A DNA stretch of 47,024 bases from Pseudobdellovibrionaceae bacterium (GTDB lineage: Bacteria; Bdellovibrionota; Bdellovibrionia; Bdellovibrionales; Bdellovibrionaceae): the NCBI GenBank assembly GCA_021731025.1, contig JAKFYD010000017.1:1-47024 (forward strand). Direction: 5' to 3'. Position 1 is the stretch's first letter. Each line of letters opens with the position of its first letter. Positions 6,872 through 37,446 of this stretch are shown one piece after another. The position numbers and the translations under genes were made by a program. The notes beneath the pieces were generated by a model that did not search any database, had not been told where the DNA came from, and saw only the letters and a program-made list of their open reading frames with translations.

Positions 6872-7554
6872 GCCAGTTTTTCGAATTTATTAACATAATC
6901 GATGATCACGCTCGAGTATTCCGCAGCGAGACTGTCAAACTCGACGCCGACATAACCATTTTCTTTGATGTAAGTGACCGAGCAATCACAGTGAATCGCC
7001 GTCGGAAGGTGGGGACTGGTGAGTAAGCCTTTAAATGTTTGACCTAAACCCAAATTTTTTGCGCTGTTCAAGCCGACTCCACCTTCACTGATAGATATAA
7101 CCCGAAAAACACCTGTTTCGCCAGAAGGAAGCTCGGCTTCGAGTTGCCCCATGATAGGAACGCGCAGGTGTCGACGGCGAGTGATCCCAAGGTGATCAGC
7201 AATTTTGGGCAGCATGAAAATACTTTTCCATTCATTCGATTCGGCTGAGCAAATTTCTAAATTTTCGTAATCTTGAATTTTTTTAAGCTCAAAGAGCATG
7301 TCCTCATAGTGAAGTGGGCCATGAATGTCAGGCCCCACCTTGTATTTCCAATCAGGATGTAAGCTTGATGTTGGAGAATCTTTCTGAAAATTTTGACTTT
7401 CGGTTTTCCATTCGGAAAAGGTCAACCACTCTTTCATACCATGGCCCCAAATGTAGCACATGGGATCTGCATCCAGCTTTGAGGTGGCCTCGGTTTCGGT
7501 AAAGGGTCCCGAAACACGGTCATCCTTCATGATAAACCAACTTTTTTCATTCAT
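6868..7554 (-). CDS. GYF-like/PilZ domain protein (probable c-di-GMP effector)
   Basis: A 228-residue cytoplasmic protein. Two GYF_2-like repeats come first (WFIMKDDRVSGPFTETEA at residues 6-23 and WKYKVGPDIHGPLHYEDML at 69-87), then a C-terminal PilZ domain from about residue 125. The c-di-GMP arginine motif RxxxR is present (Arg127-Arg131 in RRHLR). The second motif, normally [DN]xSxxG, reads SISEGG (Ser154-Ser156-Gly159), so its first residue is substituted. PilZ proteins relay c-di-GMP signals to motility, secretion or envelope machinery. The partner is unknown. No strong SD is visible. Convergent overlap with mnmD. Confidence 0.82.
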   Translation of the reverse strand: MNEKSWFIMKDDRVSGPFTETEATSKLDADPMCYIWGHGMKEWLTFSEWKTESQNFQKDSPTSSLHPDWKYKVGPDIHGPLHYEDMLFELKKIQDYENLEICSAESNEWKSIFMLPKIADHLGITRRRHLRVPIMGQLEAELPSGETGVFRVISISEGGVGLNSAKNLGLGQTFKGLLTSPHLPTAIHCDCSVTYIKENGYVGVEFDSLAAEYSSVIIDYVNKFEKLA

Positions 7555-9773: not shown

Positions 9774-11675
9774 ATCGTCGCAGCTACAGCTAGTCATTCC
9801 AATGATTCCCATAAAAATATTCTTTGGCTTTCGTTAGGTGCGCTGGGGGTTGTCTTTGGAGATATCGGAACAAGCCCTCTGTATGCTTTGCGCGAATGTT
9901 TTATTCCCGAACATGGAATAGCTGTATCAGCTGAAAATGTTTTAGGTGTTCTGTCACTGATTTTTTGGACACTCATTCTTATTATTTGTATCAAGTACAT
10001 GGCTTACGTTCTTCGTGCTGACAATAAAGGTGAAGGTGGAATTTTAGCTTTGATGGCTCTCGCTGTGAGCACGAAGCCTACGGGCCCTCTGGGAAAAAGA
10101 AAATTGGTTATGCTCACCCTGGGATTGTTTGGCGCGGCTTTGCTTTATGGCGATGGGATGATCACTCCGGCAATTTCAGTATTATCTGCCGTTGAAGGAC
10201 TGAAGTTTATCACTCCTGTTTTCGAGTCTTACGTAGTGCCGTTAACAATCTTTATTATGAACGCTCTTTTTTTGATTCAACGTTTTGGTACGGCTCGTAT
10301 TGGTGTGGTTTTCGGTCCTTTGATTATGATTTGGTTTTTAGCCTTAGCTCTTTTGGGTATCCATGGAATACTTTTAAATCCTTCCATTTTAAAAGCCTTG
10401 TCTCCTGATTATGCTCTTCAGTTTTTCTTCGATAACAATTTCAACGCCTTTTTGGTGTTAGGCAGTGTTGTCCTTGTGGTCACAGGGGGCGAAGCTCTTT
10501 ACGCAGACATGGGTCACTTTGGGCGCCGGCCCATTCGTTGGAGTTGGTTTACTGTCGCATTGCCTGGCCTCGTACTGAATTATTTTGGTCAAGGTGCACT
10601 TTTGCTGAACGATCCAGAAGCCATTGCTAATCCTTTTTATCTCTTAGCTCCGAAATGGGCCCTTGTGCCCTTGGTGCTGCTTTCCACTGCAACTACGGTT
10701 ATTGCGTCCCAGGCTTTGATCACGGGAATTTTTTCACTCACACGACAAGCGATCCAGTTAGGGTTTTGGCCGCGGTTAACCATCATTCACACTTCGCGTT
10801 CTGAAATCGGTCAGATCTATATTCCATTTATAAACTGGTCTTTGTTTGCAGGGGTTATTTGGCTCGTACTGACTTTTAAAAGTTCTACTAATTTAGCGGC
10901 TGCCTATGGAGTTGCCGTAACAGGAACAATGATTATCACCACCATGCTGGCCTATGTGGTTGCTCGAAATAAATGGCATTGGCGGGACAGCAAATGTTTG
11001 CTTGTTTTTGGCGGGTTCTTTTTGCTGGATTTGGCTTTCTTTGGAGCCAATATTTTGAAAGTCAAAGACGGGGGTTGGGTTCCGCTTTTGATTGGTACAA
11101 TTATTTATATCTTGATGATCACTTGGCAAAAGGGGCGGAAGGTTCTTTATCAACGCCTTAAAGAAAGGTCCATTTCAACGGAAGTTTTTTGCCAAAGACT
11201 TTTGCAGAAGCCTCCGTTGCGTATCTCAGGAACCGCCATCTACATGGCCGGTGATCCCTGGGGTGTGCCGGTGCCCTTGCTTCATAACATTAAACACAAT
11301 AAAGTTCTGCACGAGCGCGTCGCTATCTTGACTATCATCACTAAAGAGTTTCCCTCGATCTCGAAATCTTCGCGGGTTGAGATTCAGGAAATTATTCCTA
11401 ACTTTTACCGCATTCTGGTTTATTACGGATTTATGGAAACTCCGAAAATGAAACATATCCTTGAAGCCTGTCGGCAGAATAACATTCACTTTAATGTGAA
11501 CGAAACCACTTTCGTCTTGGGACGAGAAACCATTTTGCCAAGCAATGATCCTTCGCTTTCGTTGTGGCAGGAAAAATTATTTGCCTTTATGTCAAGAAAT
11601 GCTCAGCGGCCGACGGCCTTCTTTAAAATTCCACCAAACCAAGTGATCGAAGTGGGCATCCAAATCGAAGTTTAA
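9774..11675 (+). CDS. kup: Kup-family potassium uptake protein with apparent AUC start
   Basis: A Kup/HAK/KUP proton-coupled potassium transporter of the inner membrane. The first transmembrane signature GVVFGDIGTSPLYALREC is intact, followed by about eleven further hydrophobic segments and a soluble C-terminal domain. Only TTG 9888 is a conventional start in frame, but it would delete the first transmembrane helix. The frame is open upstream to the TGA at 9744, and at 9774 an ATC codon sits six bases after GGAG (9764-9767). Starting there gives 633 residues, close to the usual 620-630. The AUC start is inference; a sequencing error or ATG-to-ATC mutation is the alternative. Confidence 0.9.
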   Translation: MVAATASHSNDSHKNILWLSLGALGVVFGDIGTSPLYALRECFIPEHGIAVSAENVLGVLSLIFWTLILIICIKYMAYVLRADNKGEGGILALMALAVSTKPTGPLGKRKLVMLTLGLFGAALLYGDGMITPAISVLSAVEGLKFITPVFESYVVPLTIFIMNALFLIQRFGTARIGVVFGPLIMIWFLALALLGIHGILLNPSILKALSPDYALQFFFDNNFNAFLVLGSVVLVVTGGEALYADMGHFGRRPIRWSWFTVALPGLVLNYFGQGALLLNDPEAIANPFYLLAPKWALVPLVLLSTATTVIASQALITGIFSLTRQAIQLGFWPRLTIIHTSRSEIGQIYIPFINWSLFAGVIWLVLTFKSSTNLAAAYGVAVTGTMIITTMLAYVVARNKWHWRDSKCLLVFGGFFLLDLAFFGANILKVKDGGWVPLLIGTIIYILMITWQKGRKVLYQRLKERSISTEVFCQRLLQKPPLRISGTAIYMAGDPWGVPVPLLHNIKHNKVLHERVAILTIITKEFPSISKSSRVEIQEIIPNFYRILVYYGFMETPKMKHILEACRQNNIHFNVNETTFVLGRETILPSNDPSLSLWQEKLFAFMSRNAQRPTAFFKIPPNQVIEVGIQIEV

Positions 11676-33991: not shown

Positions 33992-34101
33992 GCCTTTGGA
34001 TTTGGTTTAAAACTTTCCAAAGACCTCGGCGAGCCAGGATGGCGAAAGCCGGCAACCACGGAGGGTGAGTTTTTGGAAGGTTTTAAACCAAATCCAAAGG
34101 C
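33992..34101. repeat. Variable-arm palindromic element, copy 1
   Basis: Left arm 33992-34021 and right arm 34072-34101 are 30-bp inverted repeats with one mismatch (C/T, which would be a G-U pair in RNA). Between them lies the core 34022-34070, starting GACCTCGGCGAGCC and ending GGAGGGTGAGT. The core contains a GGC-GAAA-GCC tetraloop hairpin. The arms are unrelated to those of copy 2, while the core is 47/49 identical. Confidence 0.9.
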
Positions 34102-34130
34102 TTAGTTCAGGGAATGTTCACGACTTATTT

Positions 34131-34421
34131 CTACAAAGTTTCGATAACGGCTTCTAATCGAGAGATTAAAGCCGTTTTGTTTGGATCCTGCTTTAGCTTT
34201 TCAATCTGTCCAAAACGAATCAAATCATTATCCTTAATCCCAATTCGCGATAGCAGATTGTTTTGGGAATGAAAGCACACAATCCATCCCGTATTATCCC
34301 TAAAAAGAGAAACCTCTTTTTGAAGATCAGAAAGATTTTCTTCCATTTCGGTAATCTGTTCTTCAGGAATTAAAGCTATCCTACTGCTAAGAATAGCTGA
34401 TCCAGTTAGTTGGAGTTTGTC
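34131..34421 (-). pseudogene. Remnant of a PDZ-domain (GspC-like) gene
   Basis: A 96-codon frame ends at 34131 and is open back to a TAA at 34422-34424 within the arm of hairpin element 2. The encoded sequence reads like the C-terminal part of a type II secretion GspC-like protein: a beta-strand LTGSAILSSRIALIPEE, then FRDNTGWIVCFHSQ and a PDZ-like NLLSRIGIKDNDLIRFG with a closing helix. The only ATG (34346) lies inside the domain and has no SD, so the 5' part is missing. It sits between the two hairpin elements, which suggests that their arrival and the loss are connected. Confidence 0.55.
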
Positions 34422-34516
34422 TTATTTCCTCTTTGCAGACCTCGGCGAGCCAGGATGGCGAGAGCCGGCAACCATGGAGGGTGAGTCTGCAAAGAGGAAA
34501 TAAGACAAACTCCAAC
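34409..34516. repeat. Variable-arm palindromic element, copy 2
   Basis: Left arm 34409-34439 and right arm 34486-34516 are perfect 31-bp inverted repeats (GTTGGAGTTTGTC...). The shared core occupies 34438-34486 and differs from copy 1 at only two positions: A to G in the tetraloop (GAAA to GAGA, both GNRA) and C to T in CCA[C/T]GG. It lies 14 bp past the stop of the M28 peptidase gene, so it could also act as its transcription terminator. Confidence 0.9.
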
Positions 34517-34530
34517 CCACGTTGAGCCAC

Positions 34531-37446
34531 TTATTCCTTAGCTGTGGGTGTGATCTTCAATTCCTGAGTTGCATCCCCTCGCTTTACCTTGATCGAGGTT
34601 TCAACGGAAGGTTTACCTGTTTGCAATTGGTAGACGTAATCGTAGATGTTTTCGATTTTGGTTCCGGAAAATTCGACGATGACGTCTTTATCTTTTAATC
34701 CTGCTTTTTCGGCGGGGCTGCCTTTGCTGACTCCTGATATACGAACGCCCTTAACACCTTCTTGCGAGTAGTCGGGAATAGTGCCTAGGTACAATCGGTA
34801 GGATCTTTGCGCTCCCCGATTGACCGCTTTTCCCTCGACCTTTCGGTAGTTCACCAATCGGGTGGAAGAATCGGCAAGAAGTTGAGCGTAAGTTTTTACA
34901 ACCTCAACTGATTTTTGCCAGCCTTCGTAGTTGATCAAATTTTCGGTATCACGAGGGCTGTGATATTCCGAGTGCGCGCCTGTAAAAAAAGTGATTGAAG
35001 GGATTTGGCCACCCACATAGATCGTCATTGAATCTGAAGGAACATAAGGATCGTCTTGAAGTGACATTGGCATTGCCGTTCGCAAAGAAACTTCTTCAGA
35101 AAGTTTCGTCCAATGATCTCCAGAGCCTACGCCTTGAACGTAAAGTCGTTCACGCAATCGACCAATCATATCCATATTTAAACCCGCTTCAAAGGTCTTG
35201 TTGAATTTAGGGCCCCAGTCTTTCACAAACTGAGACGAACCTAAAACTCCAACCTCTTCCCCCGACCATACGGCAAAGTACAAATCCTTTTTCAACGATC
35301 GAGGATTGGCTTTCTTTTGCGCGGCAAAATGATGGGCCAGTTCAAGAACGCCGGCAACGCCTGAAGCATTATCATCAGCGCCGGGATGAAATTGTCCTTG
35401 TTCATTTCCTTTGGCCAACGAAGCGCCAAACTGTCCTGTACCCAAATGATCCCCATGGGCGCCAATCAAAATCGCGGACTTAGAAGCTTTTCCTACAGGC
35501 AAGCGGGCGATCACACTGTGACCTTTAGACTTTTGCATATTGAGTTCAATTTCTGCTTTAACTTTGACTCCGGGGATATCAAAACCCTCGACCGCGACAT
35601 CGGGATTATCCGGTTTCTCGTAAGTTTTAAGATTGTGTTTATCGATCATCTTTTCAAAGATCGCCGTTTTAACTTTTAAAACGGGAATCGAGTTATCACT
35701 TAAAGTTCCTTCGAATTTCAACTGGCTGAAATTTTCTTTTAAACCATTTTGATAACCGTTTACAAAGATCACACCCAGCGCACCTTCGTTTTTCGCAACG
35801 GTTACTTTATGTTGGGGAAGTGAAAGATTCAGCATCTGGTGACGAAGATCGGGGTTGGCCTTTTCAGGAAAGTCGCGAAGCAATGCAACCCACTTCCCTT
35901 TCACATTCAGATTTTTATAAGAATCATAAGCCGGTCGATCTTGAGTCGATGGAATCTTTAAACCATATCCCGCAAAAACAATCTCTGTTTCCGGAAAATT
36001 TCCACTGGCTGAAGTCGAGGTCGGGATAAAATCACGAGTGATTTCTAAAACCACCTCTGGTTTTTTTTCGCGGAGAATCCTCATTGAGTTTTTGCCACCC
36101 AGACTTACTCCTGAAGTGAATTCAAACTCGTGGATGAATTCTCCTTTTGGGCTTCCGCCTTGAAGACCCCAGGCTTTAAATAAACTGATCAAAGCTTCGG
36201 TGAAAGCTTTTTCTTGGGGACCTGAAGTGGGTCGACCACCCAGTTCTGGCGAGCTCATGTAGCGAATGATTTTTTGAGCGTCTTCAATTGCGATTTTGGG
36301 ATTCAGTTCCTGAGCCTGAACCATGCGATGAGGCAATCCTAAAAGTCTTCGCGCTTCCGTATCATTCCACGAGGCCAACATGATTTGGCTTTCGCCCTTG
36401 TCATTGCGATGGGTCCAACTCAGCTGATCTCCTCGGGGGTGAAATGCGGGTAAGCCATCAAAACCATCGTCGAAGGTCACACGTACGGGTTGATGCTTCC
36501 CTTCTGTATCAATCATAAAAAGTTCAAAGTTTTCATGACCTAAAATGCTGCTTCCAAAAATAATGTAATCTCCCGACGGATGAAAGAAAGGAGCCCAAGA
36601 CATCGCATTCATTTGCGTGATTTGTTTTTGCGCACTTCCATCAACATTCATGGTGTAAATTTCAGCTGTCATTCCATTGGGTGAGAATCGACGCCAAGTG
36701 ATTTTTTTTCCATCAGCGCTGAAAAAAGGTCCACCGTCATAACCTAAAGTGGTGGTTAAGCGTTTCTTTCCTTGGCCGTTGGATTTCATGATGTAAATGT
36801 CCATTTGGCCGGAAGGATCTTGCTCGAAAACTTTTTTATCTTCATCGCTTAAGGTCGAGGTGTAAGCGTGGGCATTCGAAGCGTAAGCAATCCAATTTCC
36901 ATCCGGAGAATAAGAACCTTCAGCATCATAGCCCTTTTCTTTAGTTAATTTTTTAACAGATTTTCCCTTAAGATCGGATTCGTAAATATCGTAAGTCTCA
37001 TCGAAATTCCAAGAGTACTTGGCTTTCACTGCCTTCTGGCGATTCGCGAGCTCTTCCTCTTTTTTCTTTTTCCACTGAGGGTCTTGATGAGTTGAAGACC
37101 ACATGGCCTTTTTCATACTGGGATGAATCCACCCACAAGTTGTCTTACCATTTCCTGGTGAAAGTTGAGTCACCTTTCCCGTTGGAAAGTCGAGAAGAAA
37201 CATTTGGTAAAAAGGATTAGCTTCGGTTCTTTCGCTTTGGAAGATCATCTTGCTGCCATCGGCGCTGAAATAACCTTCCCCCGATTTCGGCCCCACAAAA
37301 GTGATTTGCCGTGGACTGCTGATCACCGTATTTTTGGTGGAGTAAAGATCTGCAGCGGATGATTTTCCGTCGGCTTTATCAGCAGATCGAGCTTGAAATG
37401 AAAGTGACGTAGCAACTAGGATGGGGAATAATATAATTTTTTTCAT
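34531..37446 (-). CDS. Exported M28 metallopeptidase with TolB-like propeller and PDZ domains
   Basis: A 971-residue exported protein (signal peptide about 1-21). Order: TolB-like PD40 beta-propeller repeats (about 45-370, e.g. GYFSADGSKMIFQS, GSYSPDGNWIAYAS, PFFSADGKKITW); a PA-type inserted domain (about 470-620); an M28 aminopeptidase domain (about 645-860) with di-zinc ligands His664 (GAHGDH), Asp691/692 (ADDNASG), catalytic Glu730 and Glu731 (SGEEVG), Asp759 (NMDMIG) and His829 (HSEYHSPRD); and a C-terminal PDZ domain (about 895-965). All ligands are present, so it is predicted active on periplasmic or prey peptides. No clear SD; its start is 34 bp from a divergent gene. Confidence 0.92.
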   Translation of the reverse strand: MKKIILFPILVATSLSFQARSADKADGKSSAADLYSTKNTVISSPRQITFVGPKSGEGYFSADGSKMIFQSERTEANPFYQMFLLDFPTGKVTQLSPGNGKTTCGWIHPSMKKAMWSSTHQDPQWKKKKEEELANRQKAVKAKYSWNFDETYDIYESDLKGKSVKKLTKEKGYDAEGSYSPDGNWIAYASNAHAYTSTLSDEDKKVFEQDPSGQMDIYIMKSNGQGKKRLTTTLGYDGGPFFSADGKKITWRRFSPNGMTAEIYTMNVDGSAQKQITQMNAMSWAPFFHPSGDYIIFGSSILGHENFELFMIDTEGKHQPVRVTFDDGFDGLPAFHPRGDQLSWTHRNDKGESQIMLASWNDTEARRLLGLPHRMVQAQELNPKIAIEDAQKIIRYMSSPELGGRPTSGPQEKAFTEALISLFKAWGLQGGSPKGEFIHEFEFTSGVSLGGKNSMRILREKKPEVVLEITRDFIPTSTSASGNFPETEIVFAGYGLKIPSTQDRPAYDSYKNLNVKGKWVALLRDFPEKANPDLRHQMLNLSLPQHKVTVAKNEGALGVIFVNGYQNGLKENFSQLKFEGTLSDNSIPVLKVKTAIFEKMIDKHNLKTYEKPDNPDVAVEGFDIPGVKVKAEIELNMQKSKGHSVIARLPVGKASKSAILIGAHGDHLGTGQFGASLAKGNEQGQFHPGADDNASGVAGVLELAHHFAAQKKANPRSLKKDLYFAVWSGEEVGVLGSSQFVKDWGPKFNKTFEAGLNMDMIGRLRERLYVQGVGSGDHWTKLSEEVSLRTAMPMSLQDDPYVPSDSMTIYVGGQIPSITFFTGAHSEYHSPRDTENLINYEGWQKSVEVVKTYAQLLADSSTRLVNYRKVEGKAVNRGAQRSYRLYLGTIPDYSQEGVKGVRISGVSKGSPAEKAGLKDKDVIVEFSGTKIENIYDYVYQLQTGKPSVETSIKVKRGDATQELKITPTAKE

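Follow-up and report, generated by a model that had tools for sequence, protein, structure and literature searches.

Two palindromes close together in the window, as we call the whole 47,024-nt stretch of DNA that was analysed, are probably strand-specific folded elements resembling the TwoAYGGAY motif. We were more confident of this than of the full statement, by which they would be copies of a repetitive TwoAYGGAY-like RNA, each with a stem of its own and all with the same kind of GGA-looped tip, a docking site for CsrA or a similar protein; on the latter our judgement was evenly balanced. The data support a fold of one strand only and selection that keeps the GGA strand paired. They also support a spread to as many as about 30 copies in a genome, with cores passing from locus to locus while the arms stay in place.

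The two palindromes and their cores

The contig that forms the window belongs to a genome of 3.49 Mb, and Bdellovibrio bacteriovorus HD100 is among the relatives of this genome. The window contains a core direct repeat at 34021-34070 and 34437-34486, which is 96% identical with the identity ending at the arms. Each 48-nt core lies inside a locus-specific inverted repeat of 32-33 bp. Copy 1 has a left arm of 33 nt (33992-34024), which forms the 5' side of the stem on the GGA strand and is 94% complementary to the right arm at 34069-34101. Its conserved core at 34025-34068, defined by repeat comparison, covariation and the family alignment, carries hairpin 1 at 34027-34051 with the loop AGGAT (34036-34040) and hairpin 2 at 34055-34066 with the loop ACGGAG (34058-34063). 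Copy 2 has a left arm of 32 nt (34409-34440) with 100% complementarity to the right arm at 34485-34516. The core at 34441-34484, defined by repeat comparison and covariation, holds hairpin 1 at 34443-34467 (loop AGGAT, 34452-34456) and hairpin 2 at 34471-34482 (loop ATGGAG, 34474-34479). All of these features are read on the + strand.

Shuffles of the window yielded no core match by chance, and other non-overlapping inverted repeats of at least 16 bp within 150 bp were absent from the 47-kb window. The folding z of the two copies was -9.3 and -12.2. The similarity between the arms of copy 1 and those of copy 2 was no higher than in shuffles. On the minus strand, the stop of an open frame at 34131-34408 is 29 nt from the right arm of copy 1, while the right arm of copy 2 ends 14 nt before the stop of a convergent M28 peptidase-PDZ gene (34531-37446), to which the GGA strand is antisense. 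The sequence-only reading was right about two near-identical cores in unrelated long inverted repeats, arms without resemblance between the copies and a position of both copies 3' of minus-strand frames. What it had called a gene remnant between the copies is more exactly an open frame, 5'-truncated where copy 2 begins. The last 71 residues of this frame gave no confident Pfam match. The cut in the frame and the outer edge of copy 2 fall together, so that the element edge looks like the end point of a deletion.

On the + strand the core reads AC-CTCGGC-GA-GCC-AGGAN-GGC-GARA-GCCG-GCA-RCC-ANGGAN-GGY-GA-GT. In hairpin 1 (GCC-AGGAN-GGC) the GGC pairs with the upstream GCC to expose the AGGAN loop, and in hairpin 2 (RCC-ANGGAN-GGY), which has one compensatory A-U/G-C change, the loop is ANGGAN. 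The segment GAAA/GAGA, variable between the window copies, faces GA in an internal loop of hairpin 1 when the alignment is read by eye. The earlier assignment of one core change to a GNRA tetraloop was dropped, as the comparatively supported structure places these nucleotides in the internal loop opposite GA. An alignment of four sequences had 97.8% paired cells and 12 two-sided pair changes, 11 in the stem and 1 in hairpin 2. In this genome hairpin 1 has the pentaloop AGGAN; the loops of hairpin 2 are ACGGAG, ATGGAG, AAGGAT and, in one copy, ATGGAT.

The core of the relatives is larger, with a variable third hairpin in its middle, and covariation is seen in the core helices, e.g. CCGTCG/CGACGG with CCGTGG/CCACGG. 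In many copies ACGA takes the place of GGA in one loop. Both loops could be read in 76 copies; each of these had at least one GGA loop, and the combination of CGA with CGA did not occur (Fisher p = 0.0012, an optimistic value given that the copies are related to one another). Shortened cores were seen at L104 (1778-1828) and L108 (1212-1262), where an internal deletion has apparently joined hairpins 1 and 2 at the sequences in which they resemble each other. A module of about 70 nt ending in CAAAAATAGC-AGGAT-GCTATTTTTG or its complement was noticed in genome G068 (L131, about 10083-10145; L133, about 7080-7160). It is apparently inserted in the hairpin 2 loop at one locus and in hairpin 1 at another and is absent from the orthologs in G070.

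Dispersal, arm pairing and core exchange

DNA and covariance searches of the same genome recovered three further copies, at C5:17470-17541 (-), C5:74917-74988 (-) and, more distant, C34:16730-16803 (+). All three have long arms of their own. With five copies here and many in relatives, the palindromes belong to a dispersed family in which the core is constant and the arms are particular to each locus, as the sequence-only reading had anticipated. Core identity among the four close copies was 88-96%, while their arm identity was at or near the shuffled level. The likeness between the arms of copies 2 and 4 (0.57 ungapped) was not significant (P = 0.14, dinucleotide shuffles with gaps). The arms measure about 27-47 nt in this genome and have a median of 56 nt in 49 loci of relatives, as determined by gapped extension. 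The idea that the arms serve as antisense guides was rejected after a whole-element search of the genome gave no further arm match.

A covariance model of the four copies detected relatives in the family. A model built from genus g7 gave hits in 29 of 66 family genomes at E <= 0.1, the highest number being 32 copies in one genome. At E <= 1e-4 it gave hits in 35 of 325 genomes of the phylum. HD100 has about 14 related elements; some Bdellovibrio-type relatives have about 30 copies per genome, nearly all of them long-armed. A strict two-hairpin DNA pattern matched 50 loci in 84,980 species genomes, where by a rough estimate about 2 or fewer were expected. These loci, roughly half of them long-armed, are found in Xanthomonadaceae, Planctomycetota, Kuenenia, Ozemobacteraceae, Clostridia, Pantoea and others. 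One metagenome-assembled bacterium (JAHJRI010000xxx contigs; L175, L180, L189, L195, L202) carries a dozen copies or more. Where these were folded, the inner arms look alike and the outer ones vary, which may reflect a more recent burst of the same element. A phage origin was discarded since two patterns had no match in viral_contigs, and matches to miRNA families in Rfam were taken as chance matches to long hairpins. Recurring neighbours of about 480 aa, considered as a conserved partner gene, proved to be an artefact of flank length.

An ordinary MITE or REP palindrome would likewise be multi-copy and intergenic. Yet the terminal repeats are not common to the copies, with arm identity at or near background, and structure and strand bias are conserved across phyla. 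We consider such an origin, or a chance palindrome, hardly credible.

The strand bias became apparent from the non-Watson-Crick positions in the arms. Read on the GGA strand, the arms of 85-87 elements had 204 G·A vs 6 C·U and 102 G·U vs 15 A·C. Because genus g7 has conserved G·A mismatches beside the core, the recount was limited to positions more than 11 nt from the core in 49 non-redundant loci; it gave 132 G·A vs 11 C·U (p ~ 2e-27) and 74 G·U vs 31 A·C (p ~ 3e-5). Arm mismatches in other phyla had the same direction with 47 vs 14 for G·A vs C·U and 57 vs 26 for G·U vs A·C. The bias would not arise from DNA copying because copying has no preference for pairs that are tolerable in one strand only. 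Thus the stem appears to be kept by selection on one strand, most simply as RNA, and arm pairing maintained by selection on the GGA strand is supported by the data. A separate observation concerns unrelated loci of several g7 genomes (L029, L036, L031, L073, L090, L092), whose arms have a CTGxCTTGGxCxC-like pattern in common. The G-A mismatches in it are similarly spaced, with peaks at about 23, 27 and 32 nt from the core.

Sister species have related arms at the same site, which diverge with matched two-sided changes. Between orthologous arms, 53 changes were paired on both sides; of the single changes, 17 left a G·U pair and 31 broke the pairing. Two-sided changes are about as common as single ones (53 vs 48), which leaves room for some templated arm-to-arm correction that may help to keep the arms perfect.

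The frequent matched changes in both arms could also be expected if the core inserted and made its own arms by inverted duplication of local sequence. Cores that are alike between loci with unrelated arms agree with such a process, as does the gene-side arm of L003/L019, which holds the last codons and the stop of the neighbouring gene. On the other hand, the mismatches are strand-biased, diverging arms are retained long-term at orthologous sites and coreless remnants keep arm sequence. Sites without the element were compared between G068 and G070. At L126 and L132 a deletion seems to have begun within the element and to have spared arm sequence, and L134 is possibly also a deletion from inside the element; at four sites the element interval is replaced by other DNA. 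Remnants with arm but without core are best read, from such alignments, as deletions starting inside the element. A single clean absence was seen (L129; L077 site), which does not tell the ancestral state. No fresh insertion with a newly made arm was found among the G068/G070 sites compared. For the locus of the window itself, the same-genus genome had no DNA match that could represent an empty site. The M28 gene is present in 53 of 66 family genomes, and no R1-type element was near it in the 11 relatives' loci examined, which are too diverged to align. We regard insertion with arm duplication as very improbable. The dedicated insertion or templated inverted-duplication mechanism of the sequence-only reading is not supported, in view of the long retention of orthologous arms, their two-sided compensation and the strand-biased mismatches.

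Cores behaved differently from arms. In the sister species G068 and G070 a paralogous core of the same genome was closer than that of the ortholog in 18 of 30 elements, a count that favours paralogs as one ortholog competes with the best of about 20 paralogs. The arms of these elements had an identity of 0.78 to the ortholog and of 0.56 to that paralog, with a random background of 0.54. Furthermore, L066 and L067 of G068 have a rare hairpin 2 (GGCAAGGATGCC) in common and no common arms; their partners in G070 (L084, L044) kept related arms and have other cores. Two inverted copies in L089 share their inner arms, not their cores. We infer that cores are exchanged by recombination between copies. 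We tentatively raise the possibility of a repetitive class that crosses phyla, in which the tip would be a copy-exchanging cassette spread by conversion or homing onto private paired stems; each genome might then hold tens of RNAs or ssDNAs with different stems and the same tip.

Neighbouring genes and transcript ends

With the GGA strand taken as +, the neighbour on the 3' side was antisense in 62 of 85 copies (p = 2.8e-5) with its stop at a median distance of 69 nt from the core. This holds for both window copies and the two close copies on C5, but not for the copy on C34. Divergent arrangements were rare (6/87). Nearby pairs of elements in relatives were all oriented <- ->, whereas the window pair is oriented -> ->.

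The arrangement raised the question of an orientation-specific 3'-end element, whose GGA-strand hairpin would stop transcripts or yield processed ones and shield the opposite neighbour from antisense transcription. Besides the gene context, the published APsRNA6 of HD100, a FliA-driven attack-phase sRNA, is in line with this idea. We identified genome G036 as HD100 because its c-di-GMP-I riboswitch agrees in strand and coordinates with the published merRNA. APsRNA6 (1,338,787-1,339,441, +) runs through the copy at 1339150-1339245, which it reads antisense to the GGA strand, and its mapped end is located inside the copy at 1339427-1339477, which is read on the GGA strand. The overlap is a single case, and the second of these copies has a shortened core.

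Several results spoke against a 3'-end element. A T5 run within 15 nt after the arm was present in 1 of 49 loci, ordinary terminators are often near the element, and the orientation of the window pair does not fit. There was no orientation bias in other phyla, and the conserved GGA loops are not needed by a terminator. This explanation appears rather doubtful to us. Of the family of terminators with a conserved apical RNA that had been suggested from the sequence, the apical RNA is retained, whereas the signature of a terminator is missing by the T5 count. The arm ends of the 49 loci had no promoter motif and no conserved flank or terminal motif; the lack of a promoter motif or U-tract with the element in these loci also weighs against an RNA reading.

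Likeness to TwoAYGGAY and proposed function

A search of Rfam matched copy 2 at 34398-34527 (+) to TwoAYGGAY (RF01731, clan CL00106) with 34.0 bits and an E of 0.0029. On the GGA strand, whole elements scored 34.0 and 25 bits in the window, 35.7 bits for the L004 copy and at most 42.3 bits in the phylum. The gathering threshold of 43 bits was reached in none of 320 phylum genomes, and the genus g7 copies scanned gave no match at E <= 1. We know of no function reported for the TwoAYGGAY motif since 2010.

The likeness consists in a long external stem of unconserved sequence, in weak matches on the same strand and span and, less clearly, in two adjacent hairpins with (AY)GGA(Y)-type loops. TwoAYGGAY has tandem GAs in its stem; in hairpin 1 of the window copies GA faces GAGA/GAAA, as read from the alignment. 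Unlike TwoAYGGAY, one loop here is a pentaloop or ACGA, and a third variable hairpin is common in relatives. The elements are also many per genome with near-perfect, locus-specific stems, and the score is below the cut-off. The element is, as judged by these sequence features, TwoAYGGAY-like and not a member of the family. For TwoAYGGAY itself a poorly conserved external stem and tandem GAs have been described and binding of CsrA has been proposed (PMC4333381).

A CsrA gene was found in 59 of the 60 related genomes searched. Since relatives that lack the element have the gene just as often, its presence has no discriminating value. To our knowledge, an ACGA loop is not bound by CsrA. The sponge RNAs CsrB, CsrC and RsmX/Y/Z likewise expose GGA in hairpin loops, and clan CL00106 includes PrrB_RsmZ. 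In contrast to these one to few dedicated sRNA genes with many GGA sites, the elements are many dispersed copies with 2-3 sites each and a long stem.

Strand-biased mismatches would also be compatible with a folded ssDNA. Integron attC sites are strand-specific hairpins located just after gene stops, on the antisense strand. The elements resemble them in their strand-specific fold, variable arms and position next to gene 3' ends on the antisense strand, yet attC is conserved at the base, while here the tip is conserved and no cassette arrays were seen. Multi-copy long stems have been filed in a 2024 survey as possible ssDNA mobile motifs (PMC11109978). Our elements are similar to MRSC-65-2 and other mobile or repeat stem motifs of that survey in having dozens of copies per genome, a long covarying stem and an occurrence in diverse phyla; MRSC-65-2 differs in being a single long stem with a UYCCGG repeat (PMC11109978). 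An attC- or REP-like folded ssDNA element acted on by a recombinase or transposase, where the bias would mark the active DNA strand and the core exchange would be recombination, would also account for a repetitive element whose cores exchange between loci. However, no transposase or integrase recurred as a neighbour among the loci compared, and the positions in HD100, G066 and G067 had by eye no obvious leading/lagging bias. Moreover, the conserved part is at the tip and many orthologous sites stay occupied across species. We think an ssDNA element unlikely.

We favor the view of a protein-binding RNA. Each palindrome would encode a structured RNA on the + (GGA) strand, with a free-sequence stem of about 30-60 bp capped by the conserved core of two or three short hairpins. 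Their loops are predicted to expose NGGA, sometimes ACGA in one, and CsrA/RsmA, or a protein that recognises such loops in the same way, would dock at the GGA loops. The stem may both display and protect these loops, and the copies, distributed over 3' intergenic regions, may together serve as an RNA that binds or sequesters protein. Recombination between copies would homogenise the cores, while the arms would drift because only their pairing matters.

Taken together, exchanged cores, private stems and strand-biased mismatches trace the evolution of a repeated structured nucleic acid in a way that is unusual for natural sequences. HD100 is a tractable predator with about 14 such elements, one of them overlapping APsRNA6, so that transcription, CsrA binding and the formation of transcript ends can be tested directly. 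A published but unproven idea of a protein-binding RNA thereby becomes testable.
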